A stretch of DNA of 54,885 bases from contig CALIEI010000037.1 in the NCBI GenBank assembly GCA_938022165.1, positions 1-54,885 on the forward strand, given 5' to 3'. Below the pieces are notes generated by a model. The model saw only the letters and a program-made list of their open reading frames with translations, had not been told where the DNA came from and made no database searches. The translations under genes and the position numbers were made by a program. This stretch comes from an uncultured Saprospiraceae bacterium. Its GTDB lineage: Bacteria > Bacteroidota > Bacteroidia > Chitinophagales > Saprospiraceae. Shown in pieces: positions 5,902 to 51,712 of this stretch. Numbering within the stretch: the stretch's first letter is position 1; each line of letters starts with the position of its first letter.

Positions 5902-5964
5902 TTATCAATGATCAATATTTAATTATCAAATTTCAATTTTCAATGATTAATTATCAGTGATTAA
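5902..5964 (+). repeat. 7-bp tandem array directly after the rluF-like stop codon
   Basis: Nine degenerate 7-bp units of the form NNNTCAA/NNNTTAA, read equally well as CAATNNN/TAATNNN on the sense strand of the upstream gene. Examples are CAATGAT, TAATTAT and CAATTTT. The first unit begins one base after the TGA at 5898-5900. Most units contain TGA or TAA, and the 7-bp period rotates these through all frames. It is oriented outward from the gene, like the other arrays in this window. Confidence 0.75.
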
Positions 5965-5989
5965 TTTGTGTTACTTAAGAAGTACCATA

Positions 5990-6125
5990 ATTGAAAATTG
6001 CACATTGCATATTGGTCATTGCGCATTGGATATGCCCATTGCCCATTGAACAGTGCACATTAAAAAATTGCACATTGATCATTGATTATTGCACATTAAA
6101 AAATTGCACATTGGTCATTGCACAT
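5990..6125 (-). repeat. 7-bp array of the MBL gene 3' side, distal part (left of the IS)
   Basis: Degenerate 7-bp units such as CACATTG, GTCATTG and CATATTG on the plus strand, which read as CAATNNN on the minus strand. This is the continuation, across the IS3-family insertion, of the array at 7619-7708 that starts at the stop codon of the minus-strand MBL gene. The two parts share words such as TTGCACATTAAAAAATTG. The phase drifts by a base at a few places. Confidence 0.7.
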
Positions 6126-6187
6126 TGGATATGCCCAAAAAAGGTTGACAAGGATTTGGTTTATATAAACTTGTTAAATTTGATAAT

Positions 6188-6586
6188 ATGTCTAAGAAAC
6201 AAGCCAAATCAGGTAAGATCCGTCGAAGCTTTACAGAAGCAGTTAAAAAAGCAATAGTAAAGGATATAGATACAGGATTAAGTAAATCGGAAGCTTCGCG
6301 TAAGTACAAAGTATCTAAAACCTCTATTTACAATTGGCTAAATATCTATTCTACAAAATTTGAGAAGTCTAAAATGGTGAAAATTCAGACTGTAGAAGAA
6401 TCTGAATCTTATCCTGAAATGCATGCAAAGATAGATGAGCTTTATAGCCTGTTAGGTCGAATTCAAACGGAGAATTTATACTTACATAAGCTAGTTGATT
6501 ATGCATCTCAAGAACTAAATATAGATATAAAAAAAAGTTTTGCAAACCAGTCATCCGTATTTTCAAAGTCGAAAAAATCGAAGTGA
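6188..6586 (+). CDS. IS3-family transposase OrfA (helix-turn-helix protein)
   Basis: A 132-residue protein. Residues 10-60 form the helix-turn-helix that recognises the element ends: the segment SKSEASRKYKVSKTSIYNWL is a typical IS3 OrfA recognition helix region. The C-terminal half (about 75-115) has heptad-spaced Leu/Ile residues, like the leucine zipper used for OrfA multimerisation. The frame ends at TGA 6584-6586 inside the GTGA overlap with OrfB. OrfB lies in the -1 frame relative to OrfA, and a run of six A residues sits 7 bases before the stop, as in IS3 elements that make an OrfAB fusion by frameshifting. The frame has no interruptions. Confidence 0.88.
   Translation: MSKKQAKSGKIRRSFTEAVKKAIVKDIDTGLSKSEASRKYKVSKTSIYNWLNIYSTKFEKSKMVKIQTVEESESYPEMHAKIDELYSLLGRIQTENLYLHKLVDYASQELNIDIKKSFANQSSVFSKSKKSK
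6572..6577 (+). promoter_or_regulatory. Candidate -1 frameshift site for OrfAB fusion
   Basis: A run of six A (TCG AAA AAA TCG in the OrfA frame) lies just before the OrfA stop. Shifting back one base here reads GAA AAA ATC GAA GTG and continues directly into OrfB, with no stop before the OrfB GTG at 6583. IS3 transposases are commonly made this way. Independent start of OrfB at the GTG, coupled through the GTGA overlap, remains possible. Confidence 0.45.
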
Positions 6587-7464
6587 AGATGGAGTACTTG
6601 TATAATAGTGCAGGAATCAGTAGACAGGCTTACTCTAAGTGGGATAATTATGTCAGTAAAAAGATTAGTAGAGACAAGGACGTTGTTAAGCTAGCAAAGC
6701 TGGTTAAGAAAAAACACTTGCCAGGCTCTGGCGTGCGTCCACTTTACAATTATATTCGAGCAAATCCAGAGTTTAGTTCACAGTTATTAGGGGTTGGGAA
6801 ACATAAATTCGAAGGTATTTGTCACAATCATGGTATGCGCATTATTACGAAGAAATACATCCCTAAAACCACTATTCATGGGGCTTACACCTTTCAAAAT
6901 AAAATAGAAGGGAAAATTATTTATGGAGTAAATAAGATATTAGTAAGTGATATTTGCTACCTGTTTGGAATATATGGAAATCTAATTGGTTATGCTACTA
7001 CATGTATTGATGTATATAGTAGATACTTATTAGGTTTAGTTTTTTCACGCACACTGAAGGCTGTAGATACTGTGATGCCTATTCTTAAGCAAGCTTTTAA
7101 AACAAGGGGTATGAAGACTTTTGAAGATACTTATTTTCACTCAGATCAAGGAAAGCAATATGTTGAAAAGAACTTTATCAAAAGTCTTCGTAAAAGAAAT
7201 ATTGAATCTTCAATGGGTAAGAGTTGTTATGAAAACCCATTTGCAGAATCATTTAACGATACTCTAAAAAATCATATGCTTAATGAGTATGATTTCGAAA
7301 ATTTTAAACAGCTAAAAAGAAAAGAACAATTCATTAAATATGTGTATAATCACAATAAGACTCATAGTTCTATTGGTAATATAACTCCATCCCAATTTGA
7401 ACGAAATCTACTAAATGTAGAAATGAAAAATAGAATTGGACTAGAAATGAAAACAATTAATTAA
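6583..7464 (+). CDS. IS3-family transposase OrfB (DDE integrase catalytic domain)
   Basis: A 293-residue catalytic subunit with an N-terminal HTH_21-like region (about residues 35-95) and an RNase H-fold integrase core. The DDE triad is visible: Asp in LVSDICYLFG, Asp in FHSDQGKQY and Glu in NPFAESFNDTLKNHM, the last with the conserved Lys seven residues later. The C-terminal YNHNKTHSSIGNITPSQFE is the usual IS3 ending. It starts with GTG overlapping the OrfA stop by four bases and is uninterrupted. The element could therefore be active, though that cannot be seen from sequence alone. Confidence 0.9.
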   Translation: MKMEYLYNSAGISRQAYSKWDNYVSKKISRDKDVVKLAKLVKKKHLPGSGVRPLYNYIRANPEFSSQLLGVGKHKFEGICHNHGMRIITKKYIPKTTIHGAYTFQNKIEGKIIYGVNKILVSDICYLFGIYGNLIGYATTCIDVYSRYLLGLVFSRTLKAVDTVMPILKQAFKTRGMKTFEDTYFHSDQGKQYVEKNFIKSLRKRNIESSMGKSCYENPFAESFNDTLKNHMLNEYDFENFKQLKRKEQFIKYVYNHNKTHSSIGNITPSQFERNLLNVEMKNRIGLEMKTIN

Positions 7465-7479
7465 CTTTAAACCACAAAC

Positions 7480-7547
7480 GCGTAGCATATTTTTTAGATT
7501 GTCCCCTTATAAACAAGGGGGCGGGCAATCTAAAAAACATGATACGC
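7480..7547 (+). terminator. Long hairpin inside the IS, after OrfB
   Basis: The arms 7480-7501 and 7526-7547 pair over 22 bases with two mismatches. They enclose an inner CCCCTT/AAGGGG stem with loop ATAAAC. The arms contain T and A runs, so the hairpin could terminate transcription in both directions. It lies between the transposase stop and the right inverted repeat. Such a structure could end the transposase mRNA or block read-in from outside. Its role is inferred. Confidence 0.6.
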
Positions 7548-7618
7548 ACATGAAAAAATATTTTGTAACCTAAGTTGTTGTAAACTTCTTTTTTGTCAAC
7601 TTTTTTTGGGCGGAACCA

Positions 7619-7709
7619 CATTGGTCATTGAAAATTACACATTGGTCATTGCACATTAAAAAATTGCACATTGAAAATTGTTCATTGAACATTAATCATT
7701 AATAATTAA
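7619..7709 (-). repeat. 7-bp tandem array directly after the MBL gene stop codon
   Basis: On the minus strand, units such as TAATTAT, TAATGAT, TAATGTT, CAATGAA and CAATTTT follow the gene's TAA (7712-7710) almost immediately. The array runs up to the right end of the IS at 7618 and resumes on its other side (5990-6125). Unit type and orientation relative to the gene match the array after the rluF-like gene, which converges on this region. Confidence 0.72.
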
Positions 7710-8594
7710 TTACCCCCTTTTTGCATAATATCTGAAAATACCTAGGATGCTGATCCATGGGGGATTGGCTACGCTGTATTTTTCAATAACTTCTTCAGAA
7801 GTAACTAATTGTGAAACGCGTTTTTCCAACCAATCACCAAAAGCAAAAACAGATTTTGTAGGATCTGAATTTTGTTGAAATAAACCATAAGTAAATTCTT
7901 CCCAAACATCAATTTCAGATTTTAAATCTTTTAAGTGCTTAATAGCATCATCAAAGATACCGAAGTGACTGATGTATAATACTTCAGGAGATTCGGCAAT
8001 TAGGATATCTAAACTTTCTCGCCAATGTTCAAAATTTATATCCGGAGGCGGGCAAGGCGGAAAGGCTGGACCACCTTTCATTCTGATGCCAGCGACATCA
8101 CCGCAAACAACTCCATATGGTGTATGCCAGGCGATATGATGTACTGCATGCCCAGGGCTAAAAAGTGCTCGTATAGTCTGCCCATAAATGGTAAAGCTTT
8201 CTTGATGATCAGCTATAACTAATTGACTAGCAGGTATTGGTTTGATTTGTCCCCATAGCAAATCCATCTGACCTCCATATATTTTAGTGGCAGAATGAAT
8301 GAGTTTGCTGGGATCGACTAGGTGCTTTTCTCCTTTTGCATGAACATAAATAGTGGCGCCTTGTTCCGCAAAATACCATGCCGCTCCTGCATGATCAAGA
8401 TGGATATGTGTCAAAAAAACATGCTTTATGTCACTTGCTCTATATCCTAAATTGGCGAGTCCTTCTTCTAATTTTGGCAGACAACTATGAGGACCCGTTT
8501 CAAATAAAATTGGCCCTTCCGGTGTTTCCATTATAAAAACAGCAACGGACTCCGCCCTCCCCATAAAGTGGAGGTCAATTAATTTAATGCTCAT
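7710..8594 (-). CDS. MBL-fold metallo-hydrolase
   Basis: I start at 8594 (MSIKLIDLHF), whose ATGAGCATTAA overlaps the end of fmt by 11 bases. The longer frame would run deep into fmt. The product has 294 residues. The metallo-beta-lactamase signature LTHIHLDHAGA gives His63, His65, Asp67 and His68 for a dinuclear metal site. Further conserved positions are the SPGHAVHH His, the GDVAG Asp and the ISHFG His near the C-terminus. The family hydrolyses thioesters, lactones, phosphodiesters and other substrates; the substrate here is unknown. Overlap with fmt implies translational coupling, not shared chemistry. The stop codon abuts the 7-bp repeat array interrupted by the IS3 element. Confidence 0.85.
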   Translation of the reverse strand: MSIKLIDLHFMGRAESVAVFIMETPEGPILFETGPHSCLPKLEEGLANLGYRASDIKHVFLTHIHLDHAGAAWYFAEQGATIYVHAKGEKHLVDPSKLIHSATKIYGGQMDLLWGQIKPIPASQLVIADHQESFTIYGQTIRALFSPGHAVHHIAWHTPYGVVCGDVAGIRMKGGPAFPPCPPPDINFEHWRESLDILIAESPEVLYISHFGIFDDAIKHLKDLKSEIDVWEEFTYGLFQQNSDPTKSVFAFGDWLEKRVSQLVTSEEVIEKYSVANPPWISILGIFRYYAKRG

Positions 8595-9537
8595 GAACTT
8601 TTTTTCTTGTTTGAAGTGTTTCGATGGTATAGCCATTCAGAAAACTAGCGGTATCCATCTTTTTGCGGCCTTGCATTTTAAGTTCTTTGATTTCTATGAA
8701 TCCATCCTGCGCCGCTATCCGAAGTTTTTTCTTTTGATCCGTTTCTATAGTACCCGGCTCTAGTGAATGAGATGAAATCATAGCATGCGCCTTGAATATA
8801 TCTAGCTGTTTACCATCAAGGGTAGTCCAAGCGGCAGGATAAGGGCTCAAGCCTCTAATAAAATTAAATACTTCGAAGGTGGGTTTATTGAAATCTATTT
8901 CGCAAGTGTGATGAAAAATCTTTGGCGCTTTGGAAACCATACTAGCATCTTGGGGAGTAAAACTAACCTCGCCTTTAGCCACTAAATTCACAGTTTGCAG
9001 TATGACTTTTGCGGCGAGGTGCATCATTTTGTCATGCACTTCTCCAGCGGTATCCATGGGCTCGATGGCTAATGGACTTTGCAAAACGATATCTCCTGTA
9101 TCTATCTCATGTTTAAGTTTGAATGAAGTAACACCCGTTTCTAAATCGCCGTTTATGACTGCCCAATTTATAGGAGCAGCACCTCTATATTTAGGTAGGA
9201 GAGAGCCATGTAAGTTGAAAGTACCCAAAGGTGGCATATCCCAAACTACAGTAGGTAGCATTCTGAAAGCAACTACTATTTGGAGGTCAGCTTTCAAGGC
9301 TTTAAGTTCTTCTAGAAAAGGCTCCGCTTTTAAATTAGGTGGTTGCAGAATGGGAATACCCTCTTTTTGAGCATATTTTTTGACAGCAGATTCGATTAGC
9401 TTCTTACCCCCTCGACCTCCTTTTTTATCTGTAGAAGTAATTACCCCAACTACCTCATGTTCAGATTGATGAATAGCCGCAAGACTATGGACGGCAAATT
9501 CTGGCGTCCCCATAAAGACGATTCTCAATTTCTTCAT
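8584..9537 (-). CDS. fmt: Methionyl-tRNA formyltransferase
   Basis: Transfers the formyl group of 10-formyl-THF to initiator Met-tRNA in the cytosol. Starting at 9537 (MKKLRIVFMGTPEFAVHSLA) gives 317 residues, normal for Fmt. The N-terminal MGTPEFA and the catalytic block FNLHGSLLPKYRGAAPINWA, with the Asn/His pair and SLLP loop, are diagnostic. The EIDTGDIVLQ segment carries the conserved Asp. The C-terminal domain (about residues 205-310) is the OB-like tRNA-binding part. It is the first gene of a two-gene unit with the MBL hydrolase and diverges from the OmpA-family gene across a 344-base structured spacer. Confidence 0.95.
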   Translation of the reverse strand: MKKLRIVFMGTPEFAVHSLAAIHQSEHEVVGVITSTDKKGGRGGKKLIESAVKKYAQKEGIPILQPPNLKAEPFLEELKALKADLQIVVAFRMLPTVVWDMPPLGTFNLHGSLLPKYRGAAPINWAVINGDLETGVTSFKLKHEIDTGDIVLQSPLAIEPMDTAGEVHDKMMHLAAKVILQTVNLVAKGEVSFTPQDASMVSKAPKIFHHTCEIDFNKPTFEVFNFIRGLSPYPAAWTTLDGKQLDIFKAHAMISSHSLEPGTIETDQKKKLRIAAQDGFIEIKELKMQGRKKMDTASFLNGYTIETLQTRKKVHEH

Positions 9538-11609: not shown

Positions 11610-11620
11610 AAAGTAAAATA

Positions 11621-15796: not shown

Positions 15797-15850
15797 TAGG
15801 TCTCTAGCTGTCTAGCAGTCTAGCTTTCTAGAGGTGTCTAGGATTCTAGT
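15797..15850 (-). repeat. Short 8-bp CTAG array
   Basis: On the minus strand the units are CTAGACAG, CTAGACTG, CTAGAGAC, CTAGAATC and CTAGACAC, one with a 2-base insertion. Unit type and sense match the array at 19673-19749. It lies about 230 bases downstream of the outer-membrane protein gene, beyond the TTAG array at that gene's stop codon. Confidence 0.6.
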
Positions 15851-16032
15851 TGAAGATTTGAACAGAACGAACATTTTTTATTCCGCCCCGACCTTTCTGA
15901 GTTGTGCAGACACTTTAGGACATGTATTCTTTTTTGGTTATGATACTAGGGGCAAAGCCACAAGATTGTTTATTATGCCTCTTTGGGGCTTAAACTCTTT
16001 TTCCTAGGCAAGAATAATCTGGCATGGATAAA

Positions 16033-16081
16033 CGTCTAACGTCTAACGTCTAATAGCTAACGGCTAACAGTTAACACCTAG
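16033..16081 (-). repeat. 7-bp TTAG array that includes the stop codon of the upstream gene
   Basis: Seven 7-bp units, three of them exact CGTCTAA on the plus strand (TTAGACG on the minus strand), followed by TAGCTAA, CGGCTAA, CAGTTAA and CACCTAG. The last unit contains the TAG stop of the outer-membrane protein gene (16080-16078), in phase with the TAG of the other units. The array points away from the gene. Confidence 0.72.
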
Positions 16082-16647
16082 AATCGATACCCCAATTTAA
16101 AACTAGTATATAGATCAATACCAGCAGTTGTACTAAGATTGCTAAATGTTAGCCGAACTGGATCACTTCCATTATTAAATGCTCTGCCGGCACCACCGCT
16201 GAATTCAAACAAAATACCATTATCACCTACCCATTTAAATCCACCATTAAATCCTAAGGCAAAATATCGTTCCGTAAATTTAAATGTACTTCCATTAAAA
16301 TTTGTTTCAGTTGACTTTAGCCTTCTTGGTCCCAGATATATTCCTGCAAACCAGCGATCACCTCCAAGATCTTCGTTAAAATAATATTTGCCCGCTAGTC
16401 TAAATCTATATCCATTTCTGGTTAAATCAAAACCAAAACTTCCATTTAAAATACCTAAAGCGCCGCCAAATTCTATATTAGATGTTAATTCCAGACCATA
16501 GTTTTTGCTAACTACATATTCAACAGATAAATCTGGTCTATTGAATAAAAATCCTAAGGGATTTGTGCCTATTTCAACCTGTGCAGATAGGGGAGTTGCA
16601 GCAAAAGAAAAAAGAATTGCTAAACAAAATAAAATGTGTTTTCTCAT
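16078..16647 (-). CDS. Outer-membrane beta-barrel protein, unknown function
   Basis: A 189-residue protein with a signal peptide (MRKHILFCLAILFSFAATPLSAQ). The rest alternates polar and hydrophobic residues with many aromatic and Gly residues, as in a small outer-membrane barrel. It ends in the aromatic FKLGYRF, a C-terminal Phe typical of BamA-assembled barrels. It resembles the DUF3575-like small barrels of Bacteroidota. The function is unknown. It is followed by the 7-bp TTAG array that includes its stop codon. The start at 16647 is only about 55 bases from the MITE-like element at 16704, which may supply or disturb its promoter. Confidence 0.7.
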   Translation of the reverse strand: MRKHILFCLAILFSFAATPLSAQVEIGTNPLGFLFNRPDLSVEYVVSKNYGLELTSNIEFGGALGILNGSFGFDLTRNGYRFRLAGKYYFNEDLGGDRWFAGIYLGPRRLKSTETNFNGSTFKFTERYFALGFNGGFKWVGDNGILFEFSGGAGRAFNNGSDPVRLTFSNLSTTAGIDLYTSFKLGYRF

Positions 16648-19602: not shown

Positions 19603-19672
19603 GCCGCAAATGTAATCAATGACATTGAAATAATAAGTGATTATGGATGGTAAAGGTGTTTAGAGAGATGTT

Positions 19673-19749
19673 TAGCTGTCTAGCTGTCTAGCCGTCTAGC
19701 TGTCTAGCTGTCTAGCTGTCTAGGGAGCTAAGGTCTAAAGTCTAAAAGG
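19673..19749 (-). repeat. 8-bp CTAG array, distal part
   Basis: On the plus strand six consecutive units TAGCTGTC (one TAGCCGTC) run from 19673 to 19720. TAGGGAGC and two 7-base units (TAAGGTC, TAAAGTC) follow. Read on the minus strand these are CTAGACAG-type units pointing away from the DUF2490 gene, whose stop is at 19830-19828. The period changes from 8 to 7 within one array. Confidence 0.72.
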
Positions 19750-34330: not shown

Positions 34331-34660
34331 TTGATTAGCCGATTAGCCGATTAGCCGATTAGCTGGTTAGCTGATTAGTTGATTAGCTGATTAGTTGATT
34401 AGCTGGTTAGCCGATTAGCTGGTTAGCCGATTAGTTGAATAGCCGATTAGTTGAATAGCCGATTAGTTGATTAGCCGATTAGTTGATTAGCCGATTAGTT
34501 GGTTAGCTGATTAGCTGATTAGCCGATTAGCCGATTAGCCGATTAGCCGATTAGTTGATTAGTTGATTAGTTGATTAGCCGATTAGTTGTTTAGCCAGTT
34601 AGCCAATTAGCTGTTTAGTTGATTAGCCAATTAGCCGAACAGTTGATTAGCCGAACAGTT
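34325..34660 (+). repeat. 41-unit 8-bp array (GATTAGYY) starting at the hydrolase stop codon
   Basis: From 34333 to 34660 there are 41 consecutive 8-base units with no phase break, mostly GATTAGCC or GATTAGTT, with variants such as GGTTAGCT, GAATAGCC and GAACAGTT. The preceding eight bases, GAATAGTT (34325-34332), fit the same consensus and contain the gene's own TAG stop (34328-34330). Nearly every unit carries TAG, and the 8-base period places it in all three frames. There are no spacers, so it is not a CRISPR. Confidence 0.9.
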
Positions 34661-34665
34661 GCAAA

Positions 34666-34742
34666 CTAAATGGCTAACAGGCTAATAAGCTAAATGGCTA
34701 ACAGTCTAACAAGCTAACAGTCTAACAAGCTAACAGACTAAC
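34666..34742 (-). repeat. Opposing 8-bp TTAG array on the DUF3276 side
   Basis: Nine full 8-base units beginning CTAA on the plus strand (CTAACAGT, CTAACAAG, CTAAATGG and similar), which read TTAGNNNN on the minus strand. It therefore points away from the minus-strand DUF3276 gene and starts just beyond that gene's terminator. It meets the 41-unit array head to head. The two have the same core but different flanking bases in the units. Confidence 0.8.
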
Positions 34743-34765: not shown

Positions 34766-34806
34766 AAAAAAAATACACTCAAGAAATGTCGTGAGTGTAT
34801 TTTTTT
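34766..34806 (-). terminator. Bidirectional terminator between the hydrolase and DUF3276 genes
   Basis: ATACACTC (34773-34780) pairs with GAGTGTAT (34793-34800), extended by A and T runs on both sides, so a T tract follows the stem on either strand. It lies 24 bases after the DUF3276 stop codon and should end that transcript. It could also stop the convergent transcript coming through the octamer arrays. Confidence 0.85.
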
Positions 34807-40168: not shown

Positions 40169-43100
40169 TTAGTTTTGACCTACTTGAGTTACCCCCTCTA
40201 CTCTGATGACCAATGGTAAACAGATATCATTGTTGTCGATAATCTCAAATAAATAATCTTCTACCTCACCGTTATCTGCCTGACCAGTGGGTAATAGGTT
40301 GTCTTCAAGACTCAATCTAGCTCTCATACCTACCAAAGTGCCAGGTGGAGCAGACTCAGGTATCGTAACCGTTATATAAGGCTGTGCATAAAGCCCAGCA
40401 CCATTGTCAGTAATATCTGCTACAAGTTCTCCTGGATCTGCAAAGTCGCCATCTGCATTCCAGTCCATCCACACTTTTAGATAAGCCGTTTGTCCTGTAG
40501 TATTGATTGAGCTAAAAGGTAGGTTATAAGTAACTCCTTGGATTGCTTCTAGGAAATTAAGATAATAAAAAGCATCTTCATCTGCACCATCTCCTAAGGC
40601 ATCCGCAGATTGGAACGCTTGGGGTTCTGTATCGATCAAAGCCGCAAGAGTCAAAGAAGGATTTGCAATGTGCCTAGGGCCATTATTCTCAGCCAGCGTT
40701 TCATAATCTCCAATACCGGTACCCAATCCAAGATCGGGTAGATCACCATAATCAAATTCAAGACAGGAAGGAGAGAAAATCTCTGTAACATCTTCACAGT
40801 TTGCAAAGCTCGTCTCAGCTGTCAACTGATAGGATGGTTGCGTTATTGCAAAAGGTCCAAATGGGCCGTATACTTGATCGTAGTTAAGATCATTGTGTGT
40901 ATCAAAACCAAGTACATTATATGTACCCGTCAAGCCATTACCTGCTACACTAAAAGTATAGGTAAACTGAGATTGATTATTGATTTCTTCACATTCAACA
41001 TTAATGTTAAACTCTGGTGCTTCAAATACTTGTACCGTTACCAAATCCAAATCACCAAAATTACATACGTTATTTGAATTGACTGACCATGCAAACTTAT
41101 ATGTCCCCGGTATCAATCCGTTTACTACTGTAGTAGATGAATTTGGCATTTGCATACTTGGCATATTGGGTCCGCTAAACACGCTCCATAAACCATCAGC
41201 TCCAGTGATAGATGCATCAAGTGTAATCTCTTCAGAACAAGTGAAAAAAGATGTTCCCGCATCTAGAGTAGCATCCTCTAAAACAGAAATAACAATAGTG
41301 TCCACTCCTACACAGCCTTCCAGATTCGTAGCTTCTACCCACATGGTATATACCCCTAACTCATCAGGCGTAAATGTTGGATCACTTATAGTGTAATCTG
41401 ATAGGTGAGTTCTATTACTCTCTGGAAACCATTCGTAGGTATAACCCTCGTCAGTATCTCCAATTTGTACCATTTCATCTAAACAGAGGTTTTGATCTGG
41501 TCCAGCAAATGGGGTAGGAGATATATCATCACTGACATAAACAGTAACCGTTGTTTGATTGATACATGTAGTGTTGATGTCAAATACTTCTAATGTATAG
41601 GTCGTAGTAGTAAAAGGCATAACAGTAGTAGTCAATGAATCTGGATCAGAGACATCAATACTAGGACTCCATGAGTACGTCAAATCTGGATTCGATACAC
41701 AGCCCTCACAAATAGTGTAAGCTCCTTGACTACAAATGGTGTCATCAACCATCACTGGAATAGAAGGCTCTGGATGGAGGGTTACAAGTACGGTATCAAA
41801 GCCTTGACATCCTGTAGTTGTATGGGTCGCTGTCAGTACATACTCATATACACCAGGTACATCCGGTGGAACATTGACCGTTGTTTGCGCTAAAAATGGA
41901 TTAGCTAAATACGTAATTGGTGTCCAAGTATAAGAATAAATTGGATTCTGAAATGGTATACCAATAATAGTGGGGTCTGAAGGGCAAATTTCTTTATCTT
42001 CTCCAGCGTTAGGCGTAATTGCTAAATCCTCTGATACATCAATACTTACTGAAGCAGTATTCTTACAGCCTGTAGCGACATCTGTAACTTCAAGTGTATA
42101 AGTAGTAGTAATGCTAGGGCAAGCAATTGGATTCGAAATGCTAGGGTCACTCAATCCTTCAACTGGAAACCAGCTATATCTTATTCCTGGGCTAGGATCA
42201 GTGCCTATTTGGACACACTCATTGATGCAGACGACCTCAGTAGCATTAACATCTACATCTGGTATCGGGTCTACAAATACGGTCACCATATCAATAGAAG
42301 TACAGGCTCCACTATTTACAGTAAGTGTATAACTAGTAGTTTCATCGATGTCAACTATAGGGTTGGCAACATTGGGATTACTCAAGCCAATAGTTGGACT
42401 CCAACTGTATGAGAGCAAAGGATTTGGAGAGATTCCGATTTGGGTTTGTTCTCCTAAACAAACTCTGTCGTCTGGTCCTGCATCGGCTATTGCAGTCGGT
42501 GTAACCATCACTTCATCAGTAGCCTGACAGCCTGAAGCCAGATGGGTAATCGTAACAGTATAAATCGTCTGAATAGATGGTGATGCCAATGGATTGGCAA
42601 TCACGCTTGAACTCAAAGACTGCCCTGGTGACCAGCTATATGTATAACCTGATCCCATACTCGGGGTTCCAATTTGAACCGGAGACGAACAAAAATCTCT
42701 ATCAGGACCAGCGTCAACACTTATTGATTGTACGCTTATAGTAACATCATCAGTAATAGAACAATTGTTTTGATCAGTGGCAGTTAGGGTATAGGTTTCG
42801 TTGGTAGTTACCGTTAATTCTGGTTGTGCAATATTTGGATTGTTCAAGCCAGTAGTTGGACTCCATGAATAGGTATAGCCACTAAGTCCAGGTGTTCCTA
42901 AAGTAACTTCTGTGTTTTCGCAAACGTCTAAATCTTCTCCAGCATCCACTTCAGGAATAGATGGAGTGATAAAAACTTGATCTTGCACAACACAACCTGA
43001 TGGTGCAGTTAAAGTAATCGTATACGTGATCGTATCGGTTACCGTGGCATTTGGCTGTGCCACATTTGGATTGTCAAGACCTGTACTTGGCTCCCAAGTA

Positions 43101-46100
43101 TAAGCATAACCAGATTGAGCTGTCGTAGCGCCAATCATTATAACATCACCAACACAAGCTGACATATCTGGTCCAGCGTCTACCGATTCTGCACTTTCAA
43201 GACTAACCGTAATAGCATCCGTAGAAAAACAACCATCAGCATTATTACTTACTGTCAGTGTATAAATAGTAGTTGTACTCGGACTAGCAAATGGTTGGGC
43301 TATAGTAGGGTCACTCAAACCTGCTGCTGGCGTCCATTGATATATATTGCCAGGAATTGCTGGTGTCCCAATTAGAGCGCCTTGTGAACCTTCACAAACC
43401 GATATATTCTCACCTGCATTGGCTACTGGATTAGATACTACAGTGTACACTAAAGTGTCGAATTCTTGACACACATTGGCGCTATCTGATACGGTAAGAT
43501 AGTAAGTAGTCGTTGCAAATAAGGTATCAATAGGTTGAGCGGTATCGCTATTTTCTAAACCTTCGCTTGGTTCCCAAGAATATACCAAACCAGGAATAGC
43601 CTCTGTACCCAACTGTACGATGGTGTTTTCACAAAAATCAGCATCTTCGCCTGCATCAGCTACAATATCATATACTTCTACAATTGCCGTATCTCTAATT
43701 TGGCATTCAGAAGCGTTCTCCTCAATGGTTACAATATAAGTTGAGGTCTGGGTAGGACTCGCAACTGGATTAAAAATATTGATCTGATTTATAGTTCCAT
43801 CGTCTGGTTGCCAACTTGCGCTCCATCCAGGTATACTTGGTCCACCAATATTGATGCCTTCACCCGGACAAGTAATCGTATCTATGGCATGAGCAAACGG
43901 AAACGGATCAGGTGGAGGATATATCGTTACAAAACTTCCACAGGTAACACTAGGATTTGCTTTTAATGTAGAAGTTAGTGTATAGTTCGTAGGTGTAGTT
44001 AGCGTTGCTGTAAAATTTTGTTGAAAGGGGCTTGTGGGATTTGGAATACCATTACTCGGCGTCCATAGATAATTGTAACGTGAAGTATCTATGCTAGAAC
44101 CAAAAACAACAGTGTTATATTCTATTGCCCCAACTGGACAATTTAAATCGGAATATGCACCGGCCAGTGGAATTAAACATCCGCAATTAGGTACTACAAC
44201 AACATCCGTACATACATTTCCATTCCACTCTACTTGAAGCTGATAGGTCGTAGGCTGAGACGGTGCCACAAAAGGCTGCACCTCATTTTCTTGACCAACA
44301 ATACTTCCAAAATCTCCAGAGAGGACTGTCCAAGTATAATTAGCTAATCCATTGGAATGATCTGGCACCCCAATTAACCGCGGTCCACAAAAGTCTATTC
44401 CGGCTTCTGCTCTGTTTACATATACCAATACTGTATCTGTGTCAGTACATCCAGTTTGATCATGGATCTTAGTCAAAATATAAGGATATGGATTGGGATT
44501 GGGAATCTCTGTAGCGGAAACAGTCGGATTACTCAATTGTTGGTTATTTAAATATAAACCAGGAGACCATACAAAAGTATAATCTGGATCATTTGGTTCA
44601 CCAATAGTAATCGCGCCATCAAAGCAATAAGTCATATCTGGACCAGCATCAGCAATTGTTTGGACTGGATTAACTTCTACATCATCAGTAACTACACAGT
44701 TATCTGGACCAATAATAGTCAGTGTATAATTTGTAGTGACTGTAGGGGAAGCAATTGGTTGTGCTACGTTTGCATTACTCAATCCAGTGGAAGGGCTCCA
44801 AAAATAACTGAACCCTGCTACACCCGGTGCAACATGAGGGGTACCAATTTGAACCCCAGTTCCTATACAGTTTATTCTTTCATCTCCAGCTTCGGCATCG
44901 TATACCCTCACCGTGTACTGCTCTATAAAAATACATCCATTTGCATCCATTACTTCGACATTATGAATCGTACTCACTGATGCACTAGAAGTTGGAGCAG
45001 GGGAGAAAGGGTCTGATAAACCAGTAGCTGGCATCCACTCATAAGTGAATGGTGGCGTTCCTCCACTTGCTGTAGCATTTAGCTTAATGGTACTAGTGGC
45101 ACATTTATAATAAACGGTATCATTTGGAAGCTGTGGAGCATTAAAAGAATTTACATCTACTAAGCTAACATTTGAGGTATCTCTAAAATCACAGTCACCA
45201 TATTGTAGAATGGCTATTCTTCTAAAGCTAGCATCATCAGTAAGTGGTTGCGGTTGATGGGATACATTTGTTGCACCTGAAATATCAATCCAGTTATTGG
45301 TTCCGTCAAAATTTATTTGCCACTGATATTCCACCTCAAAATTATTATCTGCTGGTGTTAATACACCATCAATCAGATAGTGAGGAAGACTGTCTGCATC
45401 TATGCCGACTTCCGAACCGGTAATAAAAGGTACTGTACCATTGATACACACTTCTATAAGATCGGGGCTAATAATATTTTCCGGAGCAAGGTCATCAATG
45501 CATGGAGCTATATTGATCTTACCGACTATGTAGTCAAAAGATGCACGACTTAGTGACGTACCTGTTGATGCGCTGGGTGTGAATTCAGTCTGAAAGGCAC
45601 CTACTGTTGTAGGGAAGCCATTTATGGTTTGTCCAAAAAAGTAAATGATATCTCCATCAGGTATCGCCTGAATTAATCTCGTAGCTTGAGTCCCTGAAAT
45701 CCAAGTACCATAAATATAGTCCCCGTTTGTATCTGTCCTAAATAGATATCCAGCCAATTTATCGCTTGCAAGTGGAAATAACTGTACAGCATCTGCGGTT
45801 GGAAAAAAGGAATCCTCATTGGGTACAGCATTTACATATAATAAACTAGATCCATTAGTTACATCAAACCCTACAAAGTTATTTCCTGTAACGCCATATC
45901 TTTTATCAAAAACTATACCGCCTAAAGGATCAAATTTTTGCAGAAAAAGTGTATTTCCTATACCATCGGCAAAGTCATTTATGAGTCCAGCATAATATAC
46001 TTCATTGTTTTCAATCTCAAGTAGACCTCTTTCCGAAAATTTAGGGTCTCCTACATAGGTTGCAAAACTTGCGTCTGCATTTTGTACATCCACACAATAT

Positions 46101-47842
46101 ACATGCATAGAAAATCCAGAATCAGAAATATCTGGAATAAAAGCACCTGGTGTGACAAAGCCATTGTCCCCTTCTTGATAAGACAAAACACATAACTGAT
46201 TGCCATCATATTCTACATCTATAATTCTAACTTCATCCGAATTATTATATAGTGTTGTATAGTGTTCATCATTATTTTGATCTAATATATTTATAAGAAT
46301 TCTATTGTTATTACTTAAAGGTGGCGCTGGGTTTTGGGAAACAGGAAAAACAAATGAGGCATCTAAGTCTAAAACTAATGCTACAAATCCATTTTGTGTG
46401 TGAACCGAGCCCCTCTGAGCATCTAAGGTGGCGCCAGGCTTGCCTAAATAGGAACTATAAAGCACATTACCATCATAATCAAACTTTGACACAAAATAAC
46501 TAGTTTGCCCGGAAAAGGTCGTAAAATTGGCTTGATGTAGAGGGAAGTCTGTAGAGCTGGTAGCTCCTGCTACAGCAACTACACCGTCTGCTGCGGAAAC
46601 ATTATACGGTAGTTCGGGACCTGAACCTCCTAAAAATGTGCTCCAATCGAGAATTCCAGTTTCGTTCAAGCTTCCTAAGACTAGCTCAAAATTATTGCCC
46701 GAAGCTGGCCCTTGATCTGTGTCAAATGCAGTTGGGCTAATGCCGGGAAGGAAAGTCGAATTTCCATCAACAAATAGTGTAAAGAAAACATTCCCGTCAT
46801 CAAAATCATAATCTAAGAACTTAGTACTAAAGTCATCAACAAAAAGATAAGTACTATAAATTAAGTTTCCGGTAGTGTCAAACTTGGAAACAACCATATC
46901 CCTTTGACCTGGCAAGGATGTACTATTTGAGTATGCACCACTGGTGGTAGGGTAGTCGTATAAGCCTTCACTATCTATATCCAATCCGCATAAATATAAA
47001 CAATCAGAGTCTAAAAATATCTCTGATTCTTGGGTGACACTGGAGCCAGTACCACCGATATAGGTACTCCATTCGAATACGGTAGGATCTATGATTAATG
47101 GTTTGTTTTTGTCGTAGGCACCTAAGTCAAAACTTAGTTCTTTGCCTTTAAGATTATGAGTAGACTCAATTTTTTTCAATTTTTCGTTCTCTCCTTGATA
47201 TGTAAAGGCGGCCCCTGATTCTATCTGACCAAAAGGGCTACAAAACTTTAATTTTCCATTGGATTGAATTACTAGTTCATCAACTCCCTCTAGCACATAA
47301 CTTATTTGATTTGGATCACCTCCAGGATGAACTATAAAGTCATACTCCAGCTTTCCTTGAAGATTAGTATAAAATCTTAGATCTATATTTGGGTATATAT
47401 CCAAGTATCTTAATTCTTCAAATGTTGGAACATTATCGATGCAACCAATATAATTTTTTACTCCCGTTTTCTTTTTTATCAGTTTTACCTTAGTTGTCGG
47501 AGAAGAATTGTTAAACTTCATGTTGTAAACAAAAACGTCCTCTCGATCATCACTTTTGATAATGAAAGAAACTTGATCTTCAAGAAATCTTGCTACGAGG
47601 TCTTTGGTTTTTGATTTAGCAATTAGCCCATCTTCCCATTGGCCGATATTTTTTTCGAAATAAGACTTGTGATGGGTCTTTTTTAAGATTCTCTCAATGC
47701 TTGGGTCGAGATTATCAATGTGGTGGCTTGGATTAGAATAAAGCATATGAGAGGCAAATAGCAAGATGCTATAGAGCAAAAACCTACTTACCGTGCGGCA
47801 ATAGGCGAGACCTTTAGATGCATGGGGGTAATAAATTCTCAT
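40169..47842 (-). CDS. Giant secreted repeat protein (2557 residues): DUF7948-like, SBBP-like, about 17 PKD/Ig-like modules, GEVED domain
   Basis: A signal peptide (about residues 1-37) is followed by FEKNIGQWEDGLIAKSK and a DUF7948-like region to about 255. About 255-770 is rich in WSTYIGGTGS and VVSKFDTTGNLIYSTYL units, as in SBBP beta-propellers. About 900-2275 holds about 17 modules of 75-85 residues, each with an AGPD..C start, an IGT/IGE strand, Y.Y.W.P..GLS.P and a TTTYTL.V strand, plus a conserved Cys pair that could form disulfides. After about 2365 comes GDLPDLGLGTG, then NGEVEDYLFEI. No T9SS type A or B sorting domain is seen at the end (QVGQN). It is probably a surface adhesin or matrix protein. 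Confidence 0.85.
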   Translation of the reverse strand: MRIYYPHASKGLAYCRTVSRFLLYSILLFASHMLYSNPSHHIDNLDPSIERILKKTHHKSYFEKNIGQWEDGLIAKSKTKDLVARFLEDQVSFIIKSDDREDVFVYNMKFNNSSPTTKVKLIKKKTGVKNYIGCIDNVPTFEELRYLDIYPNIDLRFYTNLQGKLEYDFIVHPGGDPNQISYVLEGVDELVIQSNGKLKFCSPFGQIESGAAFTYQGENEKLKKIESTHNLKGKELSFDLGAYDKNKPLIIDPTVFEWSTYIGGTGSSVTQESEIFLDSDCLYLCGLDIDSEGLYDYPTTSGAYSNSTSLPGQRDMVVSKFDTTGNLIYSTYLFVDDFSTKFLDYDFDDGNVFFTLFVDGNSTFLPGISPTAFDTDQGPASGNNFELVLGSLNETGILDWSTFLGGSGPELPYNVSAADGVVAVAGATSSTDFPLHQANFTTFSGQTSYFVSKFDYDGNVLYSSYLGKPGATLDAQRGSVHTQNGFVALVLDLDASFVFPVSQNPAPPLSNNNRILINILDQNNDEHYTTLYNNSDEVRIIDVEYDGNQLCVLSYQEGDNGFVTPGAFIPDISDSGFSMHVYCVDVQNADASFATYVGDPKFSERGLLEIENNEVYYAGLINDFADGIGNTLFLQKFDPLGGIVFDKRYGVTGNNFVGFDVTNGSSLLYVNAVPNEDSFFPTADAVQLFPLASDKLAGYLFRTDTNGDYIYGTWISGTQATRLIQAIPDGDIIYFFGQTINGFPTTVGAFQTEFTPSASTGTSLSRASFDYIVGKINIAPCIDDLAPENIISPDLIEVCINGTVPFITGSEVGIDADSLPHYLIDGVLTPADNNFEVEYQWQINFDGTNNWIDISGATNVSHQPQPLTDDASFRRIAILQYGDCDFRDTSNVSLVDVNSFNAPQLPNDTVYYKCATSTIKLNATASGGTPPFTYEWMPATGLSDPFSPAPTSSASVSTIHNVEVMDANGCIFIEQYTVRVYDAEAGDERINCIGTGVQIGTPHVAPGVAGFSYFWSPSTGLSNANVAQPIASPTVTTNYTLTIIGPDNCVVTDDVEVNPVQTIADAGPDMTYCFDGAITIGEPNDPDYTFVWSPGLYLNNQQLSNPTVSATEIPNPNPYPYILTKIHDQTGCTDTDTVLVYVNRAEAGIDFCGPRLIGVPDHSNGLANYTWTVLSGDFGSIVGQENEVQPFVAPSQPTTYQLQVEWNGNVCTDVVVVPNCGCLIPLAGAYSDLNCPVGAIEYNTVVFGSSIDTSRYNYLWTPSNGIPNPTSPFQQNFTATLTTPTNYTLTSTLKANPSVTCGSFVTIYPPPDPFPFAHAIDTITCPGEGINIGGPSIPGWSASWQPDDGTINQINIFNPVASPTQTSTYIVTIEENASECQIRDTAIVEVYDIVADAGEDADFCENTIVQLGTEAIPGLVYSWEPSEGLENSDTAQPIDTLFATTTYYLTVSDSANVCQEFDTLVYTVVSNPVANAGENISVCEGSQGALIGTPAIPGNIYQWTPAAGLSDPTIAQPFASPSTTTIYTLTVSNNADGCFSTDAITVSLESAESVDAGPDMSACVGDVIMIGATTAQSGYAYTWEPSTGLDNPNVAQPNATVTDTITYTITLTAPSGCVVQDQVFITPSIPEVDAGEDLDVCENTEVTLGTPGLSGYTYSWSPTTGLNNPNIAQPELTVTTNETYTLTATDQNNCSITDDVTISVQSISVDAGPDRDFCSSPVQIGTPSMGSGYTYSWSPGQSLSSSVIANPLASPSIQTIYTVTITHLASGCQATDEVMVTPTAIADAGPDDRVCLGEQTQIGISPNPLLSYSWSPTIGLSNPNVANPIVDIDETTSYTLTVNSGACTSIDMVTVFVDPIPDVDVNATEVVCINECVQIGTDPSPGIRYSWFPVEGLSDPSISNPIACPSITTTYTLEVTDVATGCKNTASVSIDVSEDLAITPNAGEDKEICPSDPTIIGIPFQNPIYSYTWTPITYLANPFLAQTTVNVPPDVPGVYEYVLTATHTTTGCQGFDTVLVTLHPEPSIPVMVDDTICSQGAYTICEGCVSNPDLTYSWSPSIDVSDPDSLTTTVMPFTTTTYTLEVFDINTTCINQTTVTVYVSDDISPTPFAGPDQNLCLDEMVQIGDTDEGYTYEWFPESNRTHLSDYTISDPTFTPDELGVYTMWVEATNLEGCVGVDTIVISVLEDATLDAGTSFFTCSEEITLDASITGADGLWSVFSGPNMPSMQMPNSSTTVVNGLIPGTYKFAWSVNSNNVCNFGDLDLVTVQVFEAPEFNINVECEEINNQSQFTYTFSVAGNGLTGTYNVLGFDTHNDLNYDQVYGPFGPFAITQPSYQLTAETSFANCEDVTEIFSPSCLEFDYGDLPDLGLGTGIGDYETLAENNGPRHIANPSLTLAALIDTEPQAFQSADALGDGADEDAFYYLNFLEAIQGVTYNLPFSSINTTGQTAYLKVWMDWNADGDFADPGELVADITDNGAGLYAQPYITVTIPESAPPGTLVGMRARLSLEDNLLPTGQADNGEVEDYLFEIIDNNDICLPLVIRVEGVTQVGQN

Positions 47843-49147: not shown

Positions 49148-49163
49148 GAAGAATCAAATAAAC

Positions 49164-49979
49164 TTAGTAAGCTTCAGATTTATTAGGAAAGTCTTTCGCT
49201 TTCACATCTACTATATATTTTTCAACAGCTACCTTAATATCTTCATGTAGTTCCATATACCTTCTTAAAAACCGAGGTTGAAACTCCTTTGTAATTCCCA
49301 ATAAATCATGTGTAACCAATACTTGTCCATCAGTATCTGGTCCTCCACCGATGCCAATGGTAGGTACACTAACAGACTTGGTAACTGCTTTAGCCAATTT
49401 CGCAGGTATTTTTTCCAAGACAATTCCAAAGCAACCAAGATTGTCCAAAATCTTTGCATCCTTCTTTAATTTCTTTGCCTCTTCCTGTTCTTTTGCTCGG
49501 ACGGTGTAGGTGCCAAACTTATAGATAGATTGTGGCGTCAGTCCTAGATGGCCCATTACGGGTATACCAGCAGATAATATTTTCTCTACTGATTCGGCAA
49601 TCTCAGCTCCGCCTTCTAATTTTATACCATGCGCTCCAGATTCTTTCATTATGCGTATCGCTGAAGCCAAAGCTTTGTTGCTATTGCTTTGGTAACTACC
49701 AAAGGGGAGATCTACTACTACAAATGCCTTTTTCACACCGCGTACTACAGATGCAGCATGATAAATCATCTGATCGAGGGTGATAGGGAGTGTAGTTTCG
49801 TGGCCTGCCATTACATTAGATGCCGAATCCCCGACCAGCAGTATATCTATACCGGCACTGTCTAGTATTTTAGCCATAGAGTAGTCATATGCTGTAAGCA
49901 TACTGATCTTTTCATTCTTATCCTTCATGGCCTTAAGAATGTGCGTGGTAATTCGTTTTACATCTTTAGAAACAGACAT
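49164..49979 (-). CDS. panB: 3-methyl-2-oxobutanoate hydroxymethyltransferase
   Basis: First committed step of pantothenate synthesis: adds a hydroxymethyl group from methylene-THF to 2-ketoisovalerate. The 271 residues are standard. [42 protein letters not shown] (metal-binding Asp), [28 protein letters not shown] and [14 protein letters not shown] are the PanB signatures. The family usually has GIGAGP, a minor change. First gene of a panB-mltG unit. No other pantothenate gene is in the window. Confidence 0.95.
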
Positions 49980-50349
49980 TTTTGTAGTTTTTTGATAGGC
50001 TGCAAGTTATAATTTAATTAGAATATTGCTTTGCTATCATTATATAATCTTTGAGCCAATTAGCGTGTTCAACTGAGTCAAAATAGTAGAATAGAACTGA
50101 TCAGATACATTCATTTTACGACAAAAAAATGATTGATTATCAGGCGATTGGTACAAAGCATAAAAGGCCGCAATGACTAGGATTCTAAGATTTTATCAGC
50201 TTTTCCAACTGATACATTTGATATCATTTTGGACAATGCTTGATTTAGAGGGATAAAGTTCCTCAAAGTATGTCAATTCAAAGGCTAAATAACAATATCC
50301 AGACCCAATTATATTACTTTATTTCATGGATTTAGGCTAATTTTACGGT
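49980..50349. other. 370-base intergenic region between panB and the 50350 gene
   Basis: Divergent promoters must lie here, but I see no clear consensus element, repeat array or hairpin terminator. On the minus strand, about 50026-50185 stays open without a good start codon. I treat that as chance. Confidence 0.3.
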
Positions 50350-51378
50350 ATGAATAAACTTATCTTTTTTGTCGCCTTATTATCAGGCCTTTTTATTAGC
50401 TCTTGCGATAACGATTTGAATATAGCAGCGGATTGGAGAAACATACCTGTAATCTTTGCTTTTGTTGATGCTGGTGAGGAGGTCAATTACTTTCGTATCG
50501 AAAAAGGATTCCTCGATCCAGCTATAGGTGGTGAAACCATAGCTCAGATTGCAGATTCTCTTTACTATGGTCCAGAAGTTACTGCACGTATCACTAATGA
50601 TCGAAATGGCAATTCAGTAGTATTGCAAAGAGTGAATTTGGAGGATGAGGGATTTGAAAGAGAAGAAGGTACTTTCGCAACTTCACCAAACATTGGATAC
50701 AGGCTTTTTACCGCTGATTTGGATTTACAAGCAGATGATCTCTTGACTCTTGTTCTATTGGATAGTAATGATCAAATCATGACTGAAGCCCAATCAACAG
50801 TTATTGGAGAATACGAAATTGCAAACGGACAACCTGCAAATCCTATGCGAATCAGAGAAGATAGTGATGTATCATTTGGATTAAGATCTAGTGAGCAATC
50901 TGCTCGATTTTATGACCTTAGAGTTTTATTTCGATATAGAGAATTTGATGTAAACACAGGCAGCACCGAAGATAGAACTTTGACTTGGTTATTAGGTCAA
51001 GGCCTCGAAAGAGCACGTACTTCTGCAAGTGGCGGATTTCAACCATTGACTGTATTCAAAATTGAAGGCCAAGAATTTTTTCAATTCCTTGGAGCAAATA
51101 TTGAAGAAAATCCCGCTGTATCCAGAACATTTGTCGGCGTGGATTTAAGGTATGATGCAGGAGGTGAAGGTCTGTTTAATTTTATCAATATTGGTCAGGC
51201 CAATACAGGGATTACTAGTAATCAGATTATCCCAACTTTCACAAATTTCACTAATAATGCGGTAGGTGTTTTTAGTTCTAGAGCAACTGCTACCAATGAA
51301 GACACTTACAATTTGAATACTGAGGCAAGAGATTCACTCAGAGATGGTAGGTTCACAAGAGCATTAAATTTCAACTAG
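50350..51378 (+). CDS. Lipoprotein of unknown function
   Basis: A 342-residue exported protein. MNKLIFFVALLSGLFISSC is a lipoprotein signal with lipobox ISSC, and the following DNDLN is acidic, as in Bacteroidota surface-lipoprotein signals. The mature part is beta-rich with no catalytic motif that I recognise. The plan (lipoprotein, Ig-like beta strands, about 340 residues) resembles DUF4249-like Bacteroidota proteins often found near TonB systems, but no such system is adjacent here. Monocistronic; downstream lie a two-palindrome element and a repeat array. Confidence 0.6.
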   Translation: MNKLIFFVALLSGLFISSCDNDLNIAADWRNIPVIFAFVDAGEEVNYFRIEKGFLDPAIGGETIAQIADSLYYGPEVTARITNDRNGNSVVLQRVNLEDEGFEREEGTFATSPNIGYRLFTADLDLQADDLLTLVLLDSNDQIMTEAQSTVIGEYEIANGQPANPMRIREDSDVSFGLRSSEQSARFYDLRVLFRYREFDVNTGSTEDRTLTWLLGQGLERARTSASGGFQPLTVFKIEGQEFFQFLGANIEENPAVSRTFVGVDLRYDAGGEGLFNFINIGQANTGITSNQIIPTFTNFTNNAVGVFSSRATATNEDTYNLNTEARDSLRDGRFTRALNFN

Positions 51379-51388
51379 ACTTTTTTTG

Positions 51389-51540
51389 GGGCCATTCCAC
51401 TACAAAGAAAATTCATGAATTTTCTTTGTAGTGGAACCGCGTCGTCCGTTACTACCGCTATATAGACGCATAATAGTGCGTCTATATAGCGATACCACTT
51501 CCACCGCTTGTCCGAGTAGGCTCGCTATCGCATCGCTCTA
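51389..51540 (+). repeat. Two-palindrome intergenic element, copy C
   Basis: GGGGCC is followed by hairpin 1, a perfect 42-base palindrome (51395-51436). A spacer with GTCGTCCGTTACTAC leads to hairpin 2 with 15-bp perfect arms (51456-51470 and 51477-51491), then a tail ending TCGCTATCGCATCGC. The framework matches copies A and B, while the stems are unrelated in sequence. It lies just after the stop of the 50350 gene, in convergent space. Confidence 0.72.
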
Positions 51541-51659
51541 ATATATGATGTGCATTTTTTTGCGAACAAGAAAGATTTGTACACCCTTGTCTCCAGCTAA
51601 AATACTTCAAAGTATAGGTTTTTTCAAGGACTTTCACTCCTTAACCTTATGTCATGCTC

Positions 51660-51712
51660 AGTGCAACAAATTAACGCATCAACAAATTACCAAATCAATA
51701 ATTTTCCAAAAC
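51660..51712 (-). repeat. Degenerate ATTTGTTGA array directly after the esterase stop codon
   Basis: On the minus strand the sequence after the TAG at 51715-51713 is built from ATTTGTT/GATTTGG/TTGATGC words. Positions 51664-51701 match 19785-19821 at roughly 34 of 40 positions. It is the same sense relative to the upstream gene as in the other locus. Confidence 0.6.

Follow-up and report, generated by a model that had tools for sequence, protein, structure and literature searches.

Short tandem arrays of 7- and 8-nt units occur in the genome of an uncultured Saprospiraceae bacterium (Bacteroidota; assembly GCA_938022165.1), where they often sit immediately past stop codons and there place their G/T-rich strand in the sense orientation of the gene that has just ended. 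They were noticed in a stretch of 54,885 nucleotides (the window), read along the forward strand of contig CALIEI010000037.1, and were followed up in a larger sample of the same genome, in which both the location at gene ends and the gene-linked strand near stops hold. The pattern looks like one already described in other bacteria, with the unit sequences as the new element. The reading favored here, to which we assign a probability of roughly one half, is that slippage-born, fast-turning arrays are kept in the transcribed 3′ untranslated stretch, where they would act in the manner of repetitive extragenic palindromic (REP) elements and bacterial interspersed mosaic elements (BIMEs).

Genome Sample and Reality of the Arrays

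The source assembly comprises 3.92 Mb in 258 contigs, is 87.7% complete, and contains the window as contig 37. The genome sample (~1.56 Mb) consisted of the window and 120 further stretches: set A (20 stretches, 11 of them picked for holding TTAGC arrays), set B (60 stretches), and set C (40 stretches), a test set for which the strand hypothesis was fixed in writing before inspection. Genes, 1174 in all, were called with our own hexamer-trained open reading frame (ORF) picker and are not a curated annotation. Arrays were detected with Tandem Repeats Finder (TRF); those scoring at least 50 were counted and lower-scoring ones left out. This gave 143 arrays, 102 intergenic and 41 coding. Counts of position use the 58 arrays that lie between two called genes and leave out 22 of 80 that lie outside such gaps. 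One stretch, L280, is the same DNA as an end of another, L033; it was removed from the position, G/T, fold, stop-codon, flank, core, and inverted-pair counts and kept in the period, motif, and terminator-hairpin counts. The contigs of L033, L084, and L048 start or finish in or near arrays; arrays may thus be sites of assembly breaks, and their count is perhaps an underestimate.

The arrays are real and exceed chance. Intergenic sample DNA held 95 TRF arrays of any period with a score of at least 50, compared with 1–7 in ten dinucleotide shuffles. The original prediction that periods are 7 or 8 rather than multiples of three was borne out: the best lag was 7 or 8 in 81 of 102 intergenic arrays (window 7/7, set A 26/29, set B 36/45, set C 12/21), with multiples of three less common, versus 6 of 41 coding arrays, of which 25 had lags of 6, 9, or 12. 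Among the 81 arrays of the first 1.04 Mb of the sample, period 8 was found in 37 and period 7 in 32. TRF also reported higher-order units of period 16 and 24, as slippage gives, and in L032 the period shifts from 8 to 7 inside one array. By reading, the unit families TTAG, CAAT, TTATGA, and TTTGTT are free of G-runs, which are present in some CTAGG arrays (e.g., L084).

Many Arrays Begin at Stop Codons

The position of the arrays relative to genes departs strongly from expectation. Half of them (29 of 58) lay within 20 bp of a stop codon, whereas 8.6 (standard deviation, SD, 2.3) were expected when each array was moved within its own gap and 4.4 when arrays were inserted anywhere; only 2 of 58 lay within 20 bp of a start. 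Within 50 bp, the corresponding figures were 34/58 for 3′ ends and 5/58 for 5′ ends, four of these five being near a 5′ end only. The claim that such arrays occur only at gene 3′ ends was nevertheless too strong, with 24 of 58 arrays not within 50 bp of a stop. Spacing in the 34 stop-proximal arrays ranged from −17 (overlap) to +34 bases, the next value being 85. Most of the closest arrays (21 of 29) begin 0–16 bases past the stop, and these therefore did not create that stop. Convergent gaps contained 24 arrays (139 gaps, 38.8 kb), tandem gaps 30 (461 gaps, 104.2 kb), and divergent gaps 4 (169 gaps, 52.6 kb).

Transcription terminators were considered as a possible source of the arrays, using our own scan for terminator-like hairpins. 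Such a stem occurred within 150 nt of 127 of 639 array-free 3′ ends, most commonly starting 20–40 nt past the stop. Arrays start earlier than this, and none of 37 array genes had a terminator-like hairpin ahead of its array, so expansion from a terminator was rejected. A terminator-like site, defined as a G+C-containing hairpin followed by a T-run, was found inside the array of one of the 37 genes.

The G/T-Rich Strand Is the Sense Strand Near Stops

Of the 34 arrays lying no farther than 50 bp from a stop, 31 had the sense strand as the G/T-rich one. Array-free 3′ flanks share this tendency, with the sense strand G/T-rich in 280 and not in 205 of the 485 flanks that could be decided among 542, and the bias of the arrays (31 to 3) exceeds that background (p = 2e-5). 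Orientation near gene ends is thus non-random, as had been proposed from the window alone. A rule based on unit motifs, derived from the window, set A, and set B, gave a similar picture: 37 arrays within 50 bp of a stop comprised 30 sense, 1 antisense (L095), and 6 undecided. In set C, all four arrays to which it applied were sense, one of them being L280, a repeat of L033 DNA. Two of the scored motifs, TTATGA and TTTGTT, were one letter shorter than those fixed beforehand (TTATGAA and ATTTGTT/TTTGTTA).

Arrays farther than 50 bp from a stop were sense in three cases and antisense in one when they lay in convergent gaps. On the 5′ side, the motif rule classed all five arrays near a start only as antisense, that is, pointing outward. 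By G/T content, the counts were 2 to 1 within 50 bp and 8 outward to 6 inward at all distances. Outward orientation is not universal in the window itself, contrary to what had been claimed: the arrays at 15803–15831 and 19669–19723 read TCTAG on the plus strand, antisense to the minus-strand genes to which they had been assigned. Their antisense reading was hidden because CTAG is its own reverse complement.

Stop Codons Within and Beside the Arrays

The original prediction emphasized that the arrays carry stops in all three frames. This was found for the sense strand in 31 of 36 arrays adjacent to 3′ ends, but it is not a directional property, as the antisense strand was closed in 30 of 36. 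In the same 36 arrays, stop density per nucleotide was 0.115 on the sense strand and 0.110 on the antisense strand (p = 0.47), compared with 0.064 in array-free flanks. The strands are equally stop-rich because a stop is contained in either form of the unit, TAG in TTAG and TAA in CTAA, and since CTAA is TTAG inverted, stops cannot set the orientation of an array. The equal stop content of both strands excludes stop codons as the cause of orientation. A caution follows for repeats of this kind, whose stop codons appear directional and are not.

A different relationship exists between the arrays and the stop codons of the genes that precede them. TAG was the stop codon of 19 of 30 array genes and of 270 of 1076 other genes (p = 1.5e-5). 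The TAG stop was also found in 12 of 22 genes whose arrays start past the stop (p = 0.005) and in 7 of 14 genes with families that lack TAG in the unit (p = 0.057, with family membership assigned by hand). Seven genes have an array that extends over the stop, with one of its own TAGs serving as the stop codon. Two histories would produce this association: the stop came from the array, or the array grew from the stop.

Inverted Pairs and RNA Folding

Where both orientations occurred in one gap, the TTAG-type array preceded the CTAA-type in 19 cases and followed it in 2 (p = 2e-4); within tandem gaps, these numbers were 9 and 1. Inverted pairs of the same family form hairpins in computed folds. 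The minimum free energy of RNA from the first 200 nt of the window array starting at 34317 was −83.7 kcal/mol for the sense and −23.8 kcal/mol for the antisense strand. Over 36 arrays, the sense RNA was the more stable in 27, the less stable in 5, and equal in 4. We attribute a good part of this difference to G-U pairing in the G/T-rich strand.

Conserved Cores and Variable Spacers

In some arrays, a core is constant while the spacer varies. The clearest case is L043:1586, where TTAG is invariant across 12 distinct units and all four spacer letters are variable. A test of uneven variation among columns, made on distinct units, was significant at p < 0.05 in 12 of 29 segments and at p < 0.01 in 4; eight of the 12 thus fell between 0.01 and 0.05, and 17 of 29 were not significant. 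Apparent conservation of the TTAG core among adjacent units was set aside as biased, the arrays having been chosen for at least eight TTAG; the unselected column test is the weaker result. The paralogous loci L054 and L035 have the stop, the spacer, and the first TCTAGGTG units in common and then diverge: more TCTAGGTG units follow in one, TTAGCCTA-type units in the other, and TAG recurs every 8 nt in both. At L043 (C56:8449–14340), adjacent similar gene ends bear arrays, and the right flanks of two perfect TCTAGGTG arrays there show 95% identity across 120 nt. In eukaryotes, RRM proteins recognize UUAG, a putative motif here.

The DNA around the arrays was compared with the rest of the sample. 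Matches elsewhere were found for 65 of 157 array flanks, near the control rate (55/141), and a mobile element around the arrays was rejected on this ground. The control segments were random array-free intergenic pieces of 120 bp, and their frequent matches within the 1.56 Mb suggest that this genome is rich in dispersed intergenic repeats.

Relatives and Other Bacteria

Comparison with relatives, which the original prediction had proposed, was carried out at a few loci, and by eye no array was seen in the 700 nt downstream of the genes read. At this range, the same convergent gene pair stands without an array in G004, a sister species, as do the rluF orthologues of G001, G002, G004, and G005. 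The serine hydrolase orthologue of G004 stops at the corresponding codon with TAA and has no array. The TTAGC pattern was absent from the five other genomes of the genus that were searched and present in one of 39 other genomes searched. TCTAGG was confined to the source genome and G004 (24 + 31 matches in the latter), while the TTATGA and CATTG patterns each occurred in 7 of 40 genomes, the source genome included. G035, from another family of the same order, had 266 TTATGA matches (118 + 148 of TTATGANTTATGANTTATGA), with long TTATGAG runs. Among reversed controls, the TTAGC octamers matched in G001 (7 + 12) and the CATTG heptamers in G006 (24 + 51) and G008 (17 + 1); these matches represent other repeat families in those genomes.

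TTAGC octamers are found in many phyla, with at least 119 stretches recovered (L113–L231), and the matches listed include Patescibacteria, Gemmatimonadetes, Gammaproteobacteria, and one archaeal record. In these outside loci, for which gene calls were crude, 79 of 158 arrays lay near 3′ ends, compared with a null of 49.3 (SD 3.8). Loci that we assigned to Bacteroidota among the 80 titles listed carried 55 arrays; these included 24 near 3′ ends (null 12.0) and followed no strand rule (G/T 15, A/C 14). The 3′ excess outside the source genome is soft, because with crude gene calls stop-rich arrays can cut spurious ORFs.

Known Systems With Similar Features

A literature search, made mostly within journals open without subscription, listed no study of Bacteroidota in which TTAG-type octamers are arrayed at gene 3′ ends. 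Several known systems do have features in common with these arrays, and they are compared here as described in the available parts of the papers cited. In Xanthomonas (GGGAATC) and Nostoc (GGGGA(C/T)T), G-rich heptamers occupy the sense strand at up to 50 bp from stop codons, and some overlap the stop (Rehm et al., 2015; PMC4692102). They resemble the present arrays as tandem units of ~7 nt in non-coding DNA with the same strand preference within 50 bp of a stop. Their unit forms G-quadruplexes, whereas the main families here are free of G-runs (by reading, with no quadruplex calculation); they are heptamers, whereas period 8 is as common here as period 7; and they prefer gaps between aligned ORFs, whereas convergent gaps are the richest here. 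Their rule extends to the antisense strand within 50 bp upstream of ORFs, for which the present arrays give 5/5 by motif and, by G/T content, 2 to 1 in that range and 8 to 6 at all distances.

GTAG-tagged REPs and BIMEs are associated with a REP-associated tyrosine transposase (RAYT, or TnpA-REP). Most are found <20 bp from a 3′ end, and many provide the gene with its TAG stop (PMC3733652). The present arrays share their placement <20 bp from ORF 3′ ends (29/58) in convergent and tandem gaps (24 and 30 arrays, with 4 divergent), the supply of TAG stops, pairs in opposite orientation, and GT pairing in stems. However, GTAG REPs are single 20–40 bp palindromes with a GTAG foot, whereas tandem 7–8-mers with the cores TTAG, CTAG, and ATTG are found here, and several unit families coexist in one genome.

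TAACTGA heptamers are known from Beggiatoaceae, Cyanobacteria, and a few Bacteroidetes, with long arrays in Gramella and Aequorivita, and in the Maribeggiatoa genome most of them lie just upstream of start codons (MacGregor, 2015; PMC4679880). They are likewise tandem heptamers, mostly intergenic and patchy in distribution, and their TAAC-type unit, in our reading, is similar to the TTAG family read from the opposite strand. They differ in preceding starts, near which (within 20 bp) 2 of 58 arrays were found here, and in their unit families. The tandem repeats of Borgs also evolve fast, have a biased composition, can begin within the end of an ORF, and have intergenic units that are mostly not multiples of three, but their units are longer (examples of 18–21 nt) and A-rich and belong to archaeal extrachromosomal elements (PMC9879509). 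Because the arrays described here share their position with the Rehm arrays and GTAG REPs and their strand rule with the former, yet lack the hallmarks of either (G-runs and the single palindrome, respectively), they are best seen as a new sequence variant.

Possible Origin and Function of the Arrays

The favored reading starts from what was computed, namely the position of the arrays, their period, the strand rule near stops, the TTAG-to-CTAA order, and the absence of arrays at the few orthologous loci read; from these we infer transcription, slippage, strand switching, and an effect on mRNA. Heptamer and octamer arrays would arise by slippage and evolve fast, and inverted pairs would arise by strand switching. 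They would be tolerated or mildly favored in the 3′ untranslated part of the transcript, from the stop codon to the terminator. There, the G/T-rich strand would land in the mRNA, and G-U pairs may fold it into a structured tail before the terminator. In effect, the arrays would behave like REP/BIME elements, which are hairpins of the 3′ untranslated region (UTR), but be built of 7–8 nt units.

Several observations weigh against this reading. The strand rule is lost in tandem gaps at >50 bp from a stop (5 sense, 10 antisense), and it is not seen in the at least 119 outside TTAGC-type loci, where the sense strand was G/T-rich in 54 arrays and A/C-rich in 50, with 3 ties; among the matches listed there, TTAG within 30 bp of a 3′ end was sense in 25 and antisense in 36. 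A terminator-like hairpin within 150 nt beyond the array was detected by our scan in just 6 of 37 array genes. As for folding, the two strands gain about equally over dinucleotide shuffles (mean z −1.7 and −1.4), many of the short arrays form little structure, and a unit order tuned for folding was rejected for the largest array, with 14 of 100 permutations folding equally well. An invariant core with a free spacer is not predicted by slippage alone, although mutation hot spots recurring in each unit could mimic it. Finally, Xanthomonas transcripts carry the C-rich strand of quadruplex repeats (49.3%) at least as frequently as the G-rich strand (39.7%), according to the available part of the report (PMC4692102).

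The main rival is a function-free mutational origin past the stop, with selection merely clearing arrays from coding and promoter DNA. Past the stop, no ribosome trails the polymerase, so that G-rich nascent RNA might invade the DNA and the exposed non-template strand slip. Such a by-product would explain the onset at the stop, the G/T-rich sense strand, the rarity of arrays in divergent gaps, and the turnover seen at orthologous loci, and it agrees with array flanks that match elsewhere no more often than controls. It leaves unexplained the TTAG-to-CTAA pairs of tandem gaps and the TAG-stop excess, and we consider it possible but rather unlikely. Recurrence of a core would be accounted for by a protein that binds 3–5 nt (UUAG, CUAG, or AUUG) in every unit of 7–8 nt, for instance the product of the one RRM gene above the Pfam cut-off in the genome, on contig 229. 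The PUR-domain protein encoded in the window, named in the original prediction, is another candidate binder. The uneven columns of L043:1586 and other segments, and the retention of TAG every 8 nt by L054 and L035 while other letters changed, are consistent with such binding, which is nonetheless doubtful given several different cores within one genome and the majority of segments without a significant core. Most mRNA peaks of Bacteroides thetaiotaomicron RbpB, moreover, lie in coding sequences, with 26 of 213 in 3′ UTRs, in the available part of that study (PMC11697453). A broader version, similarly doubtful, is a multi-family 3′ UTR code in which a stop-anchored invariant core is read by an RNA-binding protein, spacer letters are free, and unit number tunes expression of the gene ahead. 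On this view, the G-rich arrays of Xanthomonas and Nostoc would count as a single family within the code, with their G-quadruplexes incidental.

Two further proposals deal with the stop codon itself. Dedicated end-directed copying, or a REP/RAYT-like mobilization, could place units at stops and would fit the array starts and the excess of TAG stops, which GTAG REPs also supply (PMC3733652, in the part available); the genome contains three Y1_Tnp matches. The Y1 genes have no shown link to arrays, however, the units are not single palindromes, flank sharing is at the control rate, and the RVT_1 domain, the sole test made for a copying enzyme, with other polymerase families not searched, had no match in the 87.7%-complete assembly. 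Such a mechanism is very unlikely. Maintenance of the arrays as a translation barrier that closes three frames past the stop is in keeping with the closed sense frames and a stop density about twice that of array-free flanks. The antisense strand, however, is just as closed and dense in stops, which leaves orientation unexplained, and a few copies of any 7- or 8-nt unit that contains a stop are enough to close every frame. The barrier, one of the readings first offered, fails as a reason for orientation and is highly improbable as an account of the arrays.

A stop-proximal sense-strand rule was published for quadruplex-forming heptamers and is found here in families without G-runs and in octamers, which suggests that neither G-quadruplexes nor stop codons specific to one strand are required for the pattern. 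It may need a more general cause, such as RNA structure, R-loops, a protein, or seeding by the stop codon. As no array was seen at the orthologous loci read in genomes of the same genus and the units differ from locus to locus within one genome, array-bearing and array-free genes can be compared to test the cause.

Arrays of the Window and Their Genes

TRF recovered period-7 or -8 arrays at or near every site named in the original prediction. On reading the sequence, the strongest of them (5902–5966, 7617–7710, 16031–16075, and 34317–34742) begin at stop codons. The period-7 array at 5902–5966 (plus strand; CAATNNN and TTATCAA units; TRF and sequence) is in sense orientation and lies 2 bp past the stop of an rluF-like gene (5091–5900) with S4 and PseudoU_synth_2 domains. 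Facing it is the metallo-beta-lactamase (MBL) gene at 7710–8636 on the minus strand (PF00753), whose stop adjoins a minus-strand period-7 array with CAATNNN on the sense strand (7617–7710; TRF and sequence). TRF revealed another minus-strand period-7 array, missing from the earlier list, at 5990–6127, with ATTG on the plus strand and CAAT on the minus strand. Both it and 7617–7693 read ATTG on the plus strand, and a direct repeat, D1, is common to it and 7617–7657. The array at 5990–6127 seems to be the distal half of the MBL-gene array, severed by an inserted insertion sequence (IS). The IS-like element concerned (6126–7618), which we take to be IS3-like, sits inside the heptamer array in the gap where the rluF-like and MBL genes converge. 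It encodes rve transposase domains, is flanked by CAT on both sides, and has inverted ends of 47 nt with 72% complementarity (6126–6172 and 7572–7618) that read TGG…CCA.

The gene at 16078–16647 (minus strand) is followed at 3 bp from its stop by a minus-strand period-7 array with TTAG on the sense strand (16031–16075), and its TAG stop is in register with this array. At 247 bp from the same stop, a weak plus-strand octamer array of TCTAGCTG (15803–15831; 3.6 copies, TRF score 44) is antisense to the gene. Also antisense is the plus-strand octamer array of TGTCTAGC at 19669–19723, 105 bp from the stop of the DUF2490 gene; a short CTAA piece after it (19728–19746) has the opposite orientation and is sense to that gene.

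The serine hydrolase gene (33011–34330; PF00144) ends in a TAG stop that is overlapped by a plus-strand octamer array of TTAGCNNN at 34317–34651 (TRF 42 copies, score 327). An inverted, minus-strand arm of this octamer family, with CTAA on the plus strand (34666–34742; TRF and sequence), separates the TTAG array from a terminator-like hairpin at ~34769–34804, which comes from our own scan and is not among the consensus-scan results. The arrays at 34317–34742 as a whole lie between the serine hydrolase and DUF3276 genes. Farther along, 40169–47842 encodes a 2557-aa protein whose sole NCBIfam match is weak, C-terminal, and to a thermolysin family. The last array, also weak (TRF score 52, best-lag identity 0.56), is on the minus strand at 51664–51710; its units resemble ATTTGTTG when read in the sense direction, and it lies 3 bp from the stop of a neighboring esterase gene (51713–52372, minus strand) with an Abhydrolase_2 domain.

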